38,522 nucleotides of DNA from Thermoplasmata archaeon (lineage in GTDB: Archaea; Thermoplasmatota; Thermoplasmata; RBG-16-68-12; JAGMCJ01): NCBI GenBank assembly GCA_023130895.1, contig JAGMAI010000030.1, positions 1-38,522 of the forward strand, in the 5' to 3' direction. Both the position numbers and the translations under genes were made by a program. The notes beneath the pieces were generated by a model. The model was not told the origin of the DNA, did not search any database, and saw nothing but the letters and a program-made list of their open reading frames with translations. Positions 26,427 through 36,883 of the stretch are shown here, one piece after another; the stretch's first letter is position 1, and each line of letters starts with the position of its first letter.

Positions 26427-26440
26427 TATCATGGCTGATT
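26427..26440 (-). promoter_or_regulatory. Palindromic site TATCA-TGGC-TGATT upstream of wHTH A
   Basis: 9/10 match to TATCA-N4-TGATA; 13 nt upstream of TATA-like GTTATATATAC. Confidence 0.65.
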
Positions 26441-26454
26441 CTCAATCGTAATAA

Positions 26455-26997
26455 TCAGCCGCCTATTACGTCCGCGTTTCTCTCCAGAAGAGCTAGCTCC
26501 TTCGGTTCAAAGGCCCGCGAGTCTATCGAGACGAGGAACAGGGCCTTCTTCTGCATCACGATCTCGTTCACGTACTCTATGAACTTCAGGATCCTCGGGA
26601 AGTCGTTGTTGATCATCAGATACTCGAGCCCGTCGAGGAGAATGGCTGACTTGCCACCCTTGTCCATGAAGTTGCTGATGAGGTTCGTGAGGCTCCCGAG
26701 GTTGTGGGGGTCGACATAGTCCCTGCCGAGCGTGGTGGAGAGCCATATCACCTTCATCCCATCCCGCCCGCGCTTCCTCGGTATGTGGTCCGGATGCCTC
26801 CTTGTGATGTAGAGGCCCGCGTAGCCGTCATCCATCAGCTGGGTGAGGTACTCGAGCGCTCTCTCGTGCCTCCGCTCGTGAAGGAAGTACGAGTGCCCCT
26901 CCTTGAGGACTTCTTGCCCTTTGCCCAGGAATATGTTTCGGAAGAGCTCGTCCGTCGCGTTGTCTATGCTCAACACTAGCAAGGGCAGCATTCCCAA
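26455..26997 (-). CDS. DUF835-like protein (RecA/KaiC-like fold without Walker A)
   Basis: 180 aa; GLYITRRHPDHI, WLSTTLGRDYVDPHNLGSLTNLISNFMDKGGKSAILLDGLEYLMINNDF typical of DUF835. Confidence 0.75.
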   Translation of the reverse strand: MGMLPLLVLSIDNATDELFRNIFLGKGQEVLKEGHSYFLHERRHERALEYLTQLMDDGYAGLYITRRHPDHIPRKRGRDGMKVIWLSTTLGRDYVDPHNLGSLTNLISNFMDKGGKSAILLDGLEYLMINNDFPRILKFIEYVNEIVMQKKALFLVSIDSRAFEPKELALLERNADVIGG

Positions 26998-27052
26998 TCA
27001 ATCCTCGCTTCTTGGATTACCTCTCATGGGTTCTTATACATTCTGCAATCAA

Positions 27053-27066
27053 TATCAGGAATGATA
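27053..27066 (-). promoter_or_regulatory. Palindromic site TATCA-GGAA-TGATA upstream of the DUF835-like gene
   Basis: Perfect arms; 12 nt upstream of TATA-like TGTATAAGAA (27031-27040, minus). Confidence 0.7.
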
Positions 27067-27138
27067 CTCTGGTCATGTTCTGGACCCGAGCTGTGAGCAT
27101 GCGAAAACACTAAATCAAAGGCGACTGATACGACCCTT

Positions 27139-28476
27139 ATGATGCTCACCGCCTTGGAGAAGCCGACGGGCACCTTGAGAATCCTCGCGTACGTCCATCA
27201 GAACGAACGCGGGACTATCTCTGACTTCTACAGAAAGGTCGGGATAAACCAGGAATCCGCCTATTCCGCCCTGAGGAATCTCCTGCAGCTGGGCCTGATC
27301 TACGAGAAGGAGGAGGGCAAGTTCCCCTTCAGGAAGTTCTACTTGCTCACAAGCAAGGGGGAGCAGATCGCGGAGAAGCTGTCGTCCATAGAGGAAACGC
27401 TGACCGACACGGTATACGGCTACTATCACAGGCTCGAGGAGCTGGAGGCAGCGCCTGAGGCTCCTGAGAACCTTGCTGCCAGGCTCGAGATGATGCTCAA
27501 GATCCAGGATGTCTGCTTCGCGACCGGCGAGTGGGATTCCTGCATGGAGTACTGCGGGAAGTCGCTGGACCTCGCGCAGAGGTTGGATGACAAAGCCGCG
27601 CAGCTGAAGATCTTCAGAGATGTTGGGTGGATACACGAGAGGAGAAATGACTGGGATGCGGCCCGGAAGAACTTCGAGAGCGGCCTTGGGTTGGCGAGGG
27701 AGACGGGCGATTTGTCCGCCATGGCCAGCATATTCTACGACCTGGGGGCCATCCACGAGAGGAATGGAGAGTACGGCCGAGCGTTGGAGTTCTTTGACAA
27801 GTCAAGGCAAGCATCACAAGACGCCAAGAATGACTGGAATCTGGCAAGAGCTCTCTACGCCTTCGGGCGCGTGGAGGCTCAGAGAGGGAACTACCAGAAG
27901 TCCATTGGGTACATGGAGAAGTCCATCGGGATGCTCGAGGAGATCGGTGACCTGAGCGAGCTGGCCAAGGTCTGCACCGGAATGGGGGCCACGTGGTTCT
28001 ACCTGGACGACATGGACAAGACGATAGAGTACCACGAGAAGTGCATACGGACCGCCGAGAAGCTGGGGGATGCGACGGGGATCGGATATGGCCTGTCCAA
28101 CGCTGCCGAGGCCTACGCGCTGAAAGGCGACACGAAGAAGGCTTTTGAGTACCTTGAGAGGGCGCTCCTCATCTTCGAGAAGCTCAACGAGAGGATGATG
28201 ATTTCATCCGTGTACTCCCACTACGGTCAGACCCATCGACTCAGAGAGGAATGGAAGGAGTCGGAGGAGTACTTCAGCAAGAGCATCGCCCTGCTGGAAG
28301 AGCTCAATCTGCCCTACAACATGGCCGATGCCCACTACAAGTTCGGCGTCATGTACAAGGAGAAGGGTGAGCGGGACAACGCCGTGGAACACCTCTCCAA
28401 GGCGCACGAGATCTTCGAGAAGATCGGAAACAAGAGCATGATGGGGAAGGTGGCCGGTCTGAGAAACGGTCTATAG
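27139..28476 (+). CDS. N-terminal winged-helix plus TPR-repeat protein
   Basis: 445 aa; wHTH (GTISDFYRKVGINQESAYSALRNLLQLGLIY) then TPR motifs such as ASIFYDLGAIHERNGEYGRALEFFDKSRQ and ARALYAFGRVEAQRGNYQKSIGYMEKSI. Confidence 0.85.
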   Translation: MMLTALEKPTGTLRILAYVHQNERGTISDFYRKVGINQESAYSALRNLLQLGLIYEKEEGKFPFRKFYLLTSKGEQIAEKLSSIEETLTDTVYGYYHRLEELEAAPEAPENLAARLEMMLKIQDVCFATGEWDSCMEYCGKSLDLAQRLDDKAAQLKIFRDVGWIHERRNDWDAARKNFESGLGLARETGDLSAMASIFYDLGAIHERNGEYGRALEFFDKSRQASQDAKNDWNLARALYAFGRVEAQRGNYQKSIGYMEKSIGMLEEIGDLSELAKVCTGMGATWFYLDDMDKTIEYHEKCIRTAEKLGDATGIGYGLSNAAEAYALKGDTKKAFEYLERALLIFEKLNERMMISSVYSHYGQTHRLREEWKESEEYFSKSIALLEELNLPYNMADAHYKFGVMYKEKGERDNAVEHLSKAHEIFEKIGNKSMMGKVAGLRNGL

Positions 28477-35220: not shown

Positions 35221-35265
35221 TGCGATACTCATTCTCTACTTGATTTAAGCACATTTCTATGCAAT

Positions 35266-35279
35266 TATCAACGATGATA
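35266..35279 (-). promoter_or_regulatory. Palindromic site TATCA-ACGA-TGATA upstream of wHTH D
   Basis: Perfect arms; 15 nt upstream of the TATA-like box at 35241-35250. Confidence 0.7.
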
Positions 35280-35301
35280 CCCATACACCCGCTCTGGGGG
35301 G

Positions 35302-36816
35302 CTAGATTATCGGTACTAGCACCGCCTGCGGATAGCCCTTCGAGTGATCGAAGGAAAGGGCGTGGAGCTCGGTGTAGGGTTTCTCGCCGTAGAGCACAAC
35401 TGAACCGTCTATGTTCTCGATTTTCAGGTGAGTATGGGCGAGATTCGCGAGCGGTGCTGTAGAAGAGGTCGTTGACGTAACGATTCCTATGAAGATGTCC
35501 TTCGCCTTTCTGATCGACGACATGTGACCTGCCATGTCCTCTATCACCTCGTGGCCGAAGACCGCCTCCAGGGTGTCGAACCCCATCAGGGACAGGATCG
35601 GACGCTCCGTCTGCGAGAGATGATACTCGATGTTGCTCCATTTCAGCTCGTTGTCGATGTCAGAACCCTCCATTGGGAGTGCTATCTTGGAACCCTCCAC
35701 AGAGGTTGTGGCGGACGGTTCGAACACGCGCATGCACCTCTCGAACGCTTCCTGGCCGACAAAAGGCATGATCTCGTCCCTCACCATCTCCGAGGAGGCC
35801 TTCTTCTCGGGGACGAACGCAACTCCCCTGCCAAGCGAGATGAAGTTCGACAAGAGCGAGGTCTTGATGAGGTCAGAGTACAGCGTGTCGACATTCCCGC
35901 CTATCTCCACAGCGACTATCGTACCCTTCTTGAACCCGCCTATCAGAGCGTCGAGCTGGTCGCTTCCCGTCGAGATCCAGTTCTCGGATATGTCGGGCAT
36001 GGGTTCCCAACTCGACTTCTCACGCGGGATCTCGATCTTCTCGAAGCCAAAGGTCTTGATTCTCCCCCCGTCCAGACTGTAGGCACATTTGTGCTGCCTA
36101 ATCTCCGTGCCGCGAAGCTTCTCGATCTTCATTATCCTCAGCCGTCTGCCTTCGTGTTCCTCGCTCGTGAACGTGATGACCCCGTCCCCAAGATAATCGA
36201 GCCGCGTCTCCCCAGGGCTCTCCAGCACATACAGGACATCGGACGAGGAGGTCTCGACCAGGTCCTTCTGGAGCGTGTTCATCAGCTTCGAGGGGTGAAT
36301 CCCGTATCTCTCCGCCAGTGCGTTGATGCTATCTATCAGTATGAGGCTCTTCTCTGGGAGGGTGTCCTCGACCACATCATATGCCCTGTCGATCTCGGGG
36401 AGGTCCGATCCAAGGTCCAGGATGAGGCTGGTCTCCGTGACCTCGCCCTCGCTTATCTTGTCGTAGATGCTGCTCTCGTCCTCCTCACCCATCTCTATCC
36501 GGCCCTCGAGCTTCTTGAGCTCCGTTCTGTCGACCTTGCCTTCCTCCTCCTCAGGCCTTTGGTCGAACCTCGTCGGGGCGATCCGCTTCTTGAACTCGAC
36601 TCTGTCCTTGAGCCAGGGGAACTGGTTGTACAAGGAATGATCGCTCACCCTGATTGACATGTAGTACGAGTTCTCGACGCTCCCCAGCTCCTCTGTCAGC
36701 TGCAGGGCGAACGTAGTCTTGCCCGTTCCCGCAGCACCCTTGACTATCAAGGAATGTCCGCCTGGCCCTTTGAAGAAGTCTAGCAGTGCATCAGGAATAC
36801 CCTTCTCTTCTTTCAT
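35302..36816 (-). CDS. Two-domain RAD55/KaiC-like ATPase (active N-domain, degenerate C-domain)
   Basis: 504 aa; Walker A LIVKGAAGTGKTTFALQL, Walker B KSLILIDSINAL; C-terminal domain P-loop position reads GTIVAVEIGGNVDTLYSDL (no GKT). Confidence 0.82.
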   Translation of the reverse strand: MKEEKGIPDALLDFFKGPGGHSLIVKGAAGTGKTTFALQLTEELGSVENSYYMSIRVSDHSLYNQFPWLKDRVEFKKRIAPTRFDQRPEEEEGKVDRTELKKLEGRIEMGEEDESSIYDKISEGEVTETSLILDLGSDLPEIDRAYDVVEDTLPEKSLILIDSINALAERYGIHPSKLMNTLQKDLVETSSSDVLYVLESPGETRLDYLGDGVITFTSEEHEGRRLRIMKIEKLRGTEIRQHKCAYSLDGGRIKTFGFEKIEIPREKSSWEPMPDISENWISTGSDQLDALIGGFKKGTIVAVEIGGNVDTLYSDLIKTSLLSNFISLGRGVAFVPEKKASSEMVRDEIMPFVGQEAFERCMRVFEPSATTSVEGSKIALPMEGSDIDNELKWSNIEYHLSQTERPILSLMGFDTLEAVFGHEVIEDMAGHMSSIRKAKDIFIGIVTSTTSSTAPLANLAHTHLKIENIDGSVVLYGEKPYTELHALSFDHSKGYPQAVLVPII

Positions 36817-36869
36817 TTAACACCCTGCGTCAGTAAGGGCGAATCCCTTTTAGATGTTTTTCTCTTCGT

Positions 36870-36883
36870 TATCACGAGTGAGA
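36870..36883 (-). promoter_or_regulatory. Palindrome-like site TATCA-CGAG-TGAGA upstream of the 504-aa ATPase
   Basis: 9/10 match; 13 nt upstream of TATA-like CATCTAAAAGG (36846-36856, minus). Confidence 0.55.

Follow-up and report, generated by a model that had tools for sequence, protein, structure and literature searches.

A TATCA-N4-TGATA palindrome upstream of TATA boxes, a probable CsmR-type operator, at winged-helix, KaiC-family ATPase and Ras-like GTPase genes of uncultured Thermoplasmata

We analyzed a 38,522-nt stretch of DNA from a Thermoplasmata archaeon (the window: contig JAGMAI010000030.1, here C153, of a 2.06-Mb genome that is 84% complete and whose close relatives are Thermoplasmata metagenome-assembled genomes), in which the palindrome TATCA-N4-TGATA recurs just upstream of TATA boxes, ahead of genes for four small winged helix-turn-helix (wHTH) proteins, for ATPases, and for a small RNA. 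Our favored explanation, in which we have good confidence as a whole, is that the palindrome serves a CsmR-type regulon as its operator. CsmR (HVO_1209), a 13-kDa winged-helix regulator of swimming and cell shape in Haloferax volcanii published in June 2026, has the chromatin immunoprecipitation sequencing (ChIP-seq) motif TATCA(N4)TGATA beside TATA in 50 of 65 peaks, ~34 bp long including TATA (PMC13286277). The first-pass annotation of this DNA had called the regulon undescribed, which is wrong because this same motif beside TATA is already published as the ChIP-seq site of CsmR, with identical geometry (PMC13286277); the palindrome here is the same cis-code. Nor is the regulon local to the wHTH/KaiC-like region, as that annotation had it, since 18 of the 23 exact sites are found in other parts of the genome, for example at genes for Ras-like GTPases, KaiC, and Lrp-ligand-domain proteins.

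The exact palindrome occurs 23 times genome-wide, mostly beside TATA, and its reversed-pattern control not once; with at most one mismatch there are 80 matches versus 26 for the reversed control. Five exact copies lie in the window, the number that had been read as having both arms perfect, and all ten sites listed in the first-pass annotation are present, with one of them (33979) shifted by a single base to 33978-33991. Allowing two mismatches, the window holds 21 matches against 8.6 expected, and none of 100 shuffles reaches 21, so the motif exceeds chance level. When the spacer is scanned from 0 to 14 nt, N4 accounts for 23 of 34 matches, and the remaining 11 are spread over 14 other spacings (~0.8 each; Poisson P ~7e-26), which therefore indicates the geometry of one defined dimer site; the flanks widen the consensus to RTTATCA-N4-TGATAAY. 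The window has 6 composites that pair at least 8/10 arm matches with a TATA box 13-18 nt downstream; every one lies past 25.5 kb, and 29 permuted arms give 0.24 on average. Positional analysis covered fetched stretches of the genome that were partly selected for sites; intergenic DNA makes up ~14% of these loci, yet 22 of the 23 exact sites appear on reading to be intergenic. The notion that AT-rich promoter DNA yields such palindromes by chance could appeal to the single exact site on C55, which lies inside a coding gene, and to a repeated element that carries some sites in a related genome (G014, see below), but it is ruled out by the reversed, permuted-arm, and spacing controls and is further opposed by the conservation of sites in GC-rich relatives, leaving it a vanishingly small probability.

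The TATA box starts 13-17 nt after the palindrome, which places the site just upstream of the transcription factor B recognition element (BRE) and TATA, as proposed earlier; the fixed distance stands, but the range of 12-15 nt first given for it does not. For exact sites with a strict YTTAWA box within 70 nt, the box follows the palindrome by 14-17 nt in 8 of 9 cases here and in all 7 in G014, a genome assigned to a different family of the order; given how often such boxes occur in intergenic DNA, the binomial probability is ~8e-12. With a softer TATA matrix, 27 of 50 boxes fall at 13-17 nt, although the matrix was trained on the same flanks and is thus not independent. At wHTH_C, the exact site at 34864 is 35 nt from TATA, and it is the weaker palindrome at 34843 that occupies the canonical 14-nt position. 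This composite of operator and TATA at fixed distance matches the published CsmR geometry (~34-bp composite). Near-leaderless starts had also been claimed, and these hold for wHTH_D but not for many other targets, which start 40-100 nt after the palindrome. For wHTH_D, ATG 35220 is a better start than 35232, because the latter ATG would precede the expected transcription start, and the transcript is probably leaderless.

Conservation was assessed in 64 loci from named genomes, and most families keep the gene order GvpD-wHTH_D-wHTH_C. Among 30 arm permutations, the operator comes first at wHTH_D, wHTH_A, and DUF835 promoters in each lineage of the order that was examined (1/30 in four lineages for the orthologous wHTH_A promoters); at GvpD promoters it does so everywhere except in family f4, where it ranks second. 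Its position at wHTH_D is nearly fixed, the 5' end lying at -46 to -49 relative to the start codon in every family of the order, and at the GvpD-like ATPase it lies at -66 to -70 in f1, f2, and f3/5/6. The motif is thus conserved in orthologous promoters of wHTH_D, wHTH_A, the GvpD-like ATPase, and DUF835 across the order. Across the order loci, no conserved operator is seen at the promoters of OTC, PRT, amidohydrolase, UDG-nudix, and HSP20, in keeping with the earlier observation that housekeeping promoters lack the motif, and we reject a general housekeeping role for it.

Genes with sites outside the window include those for Ras-family GTPases (C13, C23, and C226), a KaiC protein (C201), Lrp/AsnC ligand-domain proteins (C39, C135, and C228), TPR and zinc-ribbon proteins, and further wHTH proteins. 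Of 20 Ras-family matches in the genome, 19 have readable upstream DNA, and 7 of these bear a site of at least 8/10 arm matches. In G014 we find 33 exact sites versus 3 for the control, among them sites at four Ras GTPases, a GvpD-like ATPase, two KaiC genes, wHTH_D, and one Lrp-ligand-domain protein, which are also the types of gene targeted here. Several of these palindromes (L102, L158:3853, L166, and L167) share the downstream sequence ATAGCACTGGAAACATCATTTGCTATTCC; the operator has been copied there within a repeated element, and the count of independent sites is therefore lower than 33. Two further observations concern individual genes. A near-identical pair of genes for 240-aa ArsR-like proteins, on the short contigs C109 and C222 (L022:5764 and L027:913), has an exact site upstream of each member. 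A site-bearing gene on C223 (L028:6106-9126) encodes a protein of 1007 aa that has repeats of the NGRVNGRV type and matches no Pfam family, and a similar repeat protein in G014 (L171) also has a site.

Proteins wHTH_A to wHTH_D (110-117 aa) are the sole members of their family in the genome, and a comparison of 32 sequences from the paralogues and several families shows no variation at residues P, I, A, Y, and R of their recognition helix, PIAACYR. The AlphaFold model of wHTH_C shows a winged helix and a C-terminal beta sheet (predicted local distance difference test, pLDDT, 88.6), with Phr of Pyrococcus furiosus (2P4W) as the best PDB match. All four wHTH promoters bear sites, which agrees with the earlier suggestion that autoregulated wHTH paralogues are the likely binders, and we consider it very likely that these proteins bind the palindrome. 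Alternatively, another regulator, itself a target, might bind it, with the four paralogues merely regulated; the wHTH-TPR protein (27139-28476), the twin ArsR-like proteins (C109/C222), and a wHTH-membrane protein (C223) are candidates, and their genes also bear or adjoin sites. Yet few sites are as well conserved across the order as those at wHTH_D and wHTH_A, the motif is the one that ChIP gave for a small wHTH protein with the same architecture, and among the loci compared the wHTH-TPR gene is found in those of f1 only while sites reach other families, so that we regard a different binder as unlikely.

A sugar regulon of TrmB type, built on the Thermococcales glycolytic motif (TGM; TATCAC-N5-GTGATA), would share with our system the TATCA half-site and, as for TrmBL1/Tgr, an activating placement upstream of BRE/TATA (PMC4158304). 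Its geometry, with TATCA and TGATA 7 nt apart, has 1 match versus 23 at N4, which contradicts the assignment. TrmB proteins carry an effector-binding domain (PMC4158304), unlike the four small wHTH proteins, which lack a sugar-binding domain and have no TrmB family match above cut-off (PF01978, at most 24.9 bits vs 25.6). Sugar-metabolism genes are not prominent among the targets either, and the TrmB reading is highly improbable.

In the CsmR-type mechanism that we favor, dimers of the wHTH proteins would each set the PIAACYR helix against a single TATCA half-site, immediately before BRE, and so modulate recruitment of TATA-binding protein and transcription factor B (TFB) at their own genes, as well as at promoters of the GvpD/KaiC/DUF835 ATPases, a subset of Ras-like GTPases, Lrp-ligand-domain proteins, and the small RNA. 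ATPases of GvpD/KaiC type encoded alongside probably modulate the wHTH proteins in turn, as is proposed for CirA and CsmR and as GvpD does with GvpE; nucleotide-dependent removal of a partner activator is known for GvpD/GvpE only (PMC4390858), and we rate such feedback in the present system as an even prospect. The first-pass annotation had proposed an activator site. Placement upstream of BRE is the activating arrangement for TGM regulators (PMC4158304) and GvpE (PMC4390858), and an equivalent placement upstream of TATA led the CsmR authors to infer positive control (PMC13286277). The same wHTH proteins on the same operator might instead be repressors, a dimer beside BRE blocking TFB loading and the ATPases relieving the block, as the rise of target transcripts upon csmR deletion in Haloferax would suggest (PMC13286277). 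Between these opposite indications on the sign of control, we lean modestly toward activation and give repression a substantial but smaller chance.

Several points weigh against a CsmR-type regulon, beginning with that deletion phenotype. The four proteins are putatively CsmR-type by size, architecture, and closest fold, but the CsmR paper assigns csmR to Halobacteria and Thaumarchaeota, with no mention of Thermoplasmata (PMC13286277). Genomes of f4 have wHTH genes and zero exact 16-mers, as fits the degenerate form of their sites (TMTCR-N4-YGAKA), and f22 genomes show the reverse, sites without a wHTH match (for example G059, with 5 exact 16-mers), so presence or absence of wHTH gives no clean rule for the motif across the class. 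Outside the order, 40 distant loci give a mixed signal. A tblastn search with wHTH_D against 72,556 plasmids returned mostly haloarchaeal wHTH genes; these are genes other than HVO_1209 and lack good sites in their own promoters. In favor of the CsmR-type reading, haloarchaeal wHTH proteins match those here (tblastn E=9e-9), and eight of them align with wHTH_A to wHTH_D from end to end (110 columns, hhalign probability 99.7%).

The candidate small RNA of the first-pass annotation is supported. CCCCUCCUC and UUCCUCACCCCCC are invariant, the stem has four covarying pairs changed on both sides, an internal length change breaks any reading frame, and 8 genomes from f1 and f2 have a single copy each, preceded by the operator wherever the upstream DNA was read; the RNA has no Rfam match. 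The CCCCUCCUC stretch is anti-Shine-Dalgarno-like, and its CCUCC could pair with Shine-Dalgarno sequences. On the reverse strand 3' of wHTH_A (25880-26025) are two tandem units of CCCCTCCTCC, hairpin, C-run, and T-run, the first of which gives a weak match to the small-RNA model at 25947-26034 (E 0.12, 16.8 bits); similar sequence also follows wHTH_A in other families.

Table 1. Operator sites and associated genes in the window
Feature	Position	Strand	Remarks
wHTH_A, 115 aa, CsmR-type small wHTH	26017..26361	-	HTH_20/TrmB-like Pfam matches; 66% identity to wHTH_C
Operator, wHTH_A promoter	26427..26440	-	AATCAGCCATGATA on - strand, 9/10; 15 nt before TATA-like GTTATATAT
Second weak palindrome, wHTH_A promoter	26440-26453		overlaps the first
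DUF835 protein, inactivated KaiC-like family	26455..26997	-	PF05763 E=2.8e-36
Exact operator ahead of DUF835	27053..27066	-	ATGTATAAG TATA ~13 nt on
Exact operator, p231-KaiC operon	32144..32157	+	
p231, lineage-restricted	32216..32911	+	KaiC/RecA-like predicted fold
KaiC-type ATPase	32904..33587	+	PF06745 E=1.6e-43
Exact operator, small-RNA gene	33617..33630	+	TATA CTTATA 16 nt on; conserved in f1, f2
Conserved small RNA	33671..33768	+	CCCCUCCUC stretch, GAGGAAR/YUUCCUC stem, CACCCCCC, U-run
44-aa open reading frame	33793..33927	-	read from sequence
Weak operator (8/10), 44-aa open reading frame	33978..33991	-	TTTAAAT 14 nt on
wHTH_B	33996..34334	-	
Weak operator (8/10), wHTH_B	34380..34393	-	overlapping weak palindrome 34393-34406
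wHTH_C, 114 aa	34407..34751	-	modelled winged helix and C-terminal beta sheet
Weak promoter-proximal operator, wHTH_C	34843..34856	-	14 nt from TTTAAA
Exact operator, wHTH_C	34864..34877	-	21 bp upstream of the proximal one
wHTH_D	34879..35220	-	start MREK...
Exact operator, wHTH_D	35266..35279	-	CTTAAA 16 nt on
GvpD-like ATPase, 504 aa	35302..36816	-	PF07088 E=7.6e-17, PF20440 E=3.7e-11
Operator (9/10), GvpD-like ATPase	36870..36883	-	

As had been proposed, ATPases are among the targets in the window (Table 1), with sites at the promoters of the p231-KaiC operon and of the GvpD-like ATPase. The latter protein scores above cut-off for both the GvpD P-loop (62.3 bits) and basic region 2 (43.5 bits), and DUF835 has been classed as iKaiC (PMC5847659). 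The p231 protein has no Pfam match and few homologues (12 found, the named ones from Thermoplasmata), and its AlphaFold 2 model (pLDDT 76) has FlaH and KaiC among its best PDB fold matches. The wHTH_A and wHTH_B promoters (26427-26453 and 34380-34406) carry paired weak palindromes offset by 13 bp, a tandem layout that is also seen at some f4 and f2 wHTH_A promoters.

Archaeal Ras-like GTPases and KaiC-family ATPases have roles that are largely unknown, and the operator provides a defined promoter code for both in an uncultured clade. None of ten genomes of f1 and f2 has an archaellin over cut-off, with H. volcanii positive as control; chance loss in all ten is unlikely, though several are incomplete. 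We therefore reject archaellum control in the f1/f2 clade and view the regulon as a signaling set of GTPases and KaiC-family ATPases, and a cis-code described only recently for motility in Haloferax thus seems to be shared by archaea that lack archaellins. More tentatively, and with slightly less than even confidence, we propose that an ancient archaeal switch of CsmR-type wHTH proteins and KaiC/GvpD-type ATPases reads one palindrome in both Halobacteria and Thermoplasmata, and that in Thermoplasmata it was rewired from motility to transcriptional control of a Ras-like GTPase signaling network, in which four paralogues would regulate their own genes and a small RNA of the regulon may base-pair with Shine-Dalgarno sequences.

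Among known systems, the Pyrococcus heat-shock regulator Phr is the closest solved structure and resembles wHTH_C in fold, but it is longer, shares only ~23% identity, and has heat-shock targets. The GvpD/GvpE system of haloarchaea likewise sets a GvpD-family ATPase beside a regulator whose site abuts BRE and consists of two half-sites with a 4-nt gap (PMC4390858); GvpE, however, resembles a leucine-zipper protein and binds 8-nt elements (PMC4390858), in contrast to the wHTH proteins and TATCA palindrome here, where we see no gas-vesicle operon. The CsmR/CirA system has the same semi-palindrome beside TATA, a small wHTH protein with a beta-type dimer domain and Phr 2P4W as its closest structure, as do the wHTH proteins here, and a functionally linked KaiC-like partner, CirA (PMC13286277), encoded nearby, to which the GvpD-wHTH_D-wHTH_C gene order and the KaiC gene at 32904-33587 correspond. 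The two differ in that one CsmR gene is described in contrast to four wHTH paralogues here, and in their targets, which are archaellum, chemotaxis, and shape genes for CsmR and genes for GvpD/KaiC/DUF835 ATPases, Ras-like GTPases, Lrp-ligand-domain proteins, and a small RNA in Thermoplasmata.

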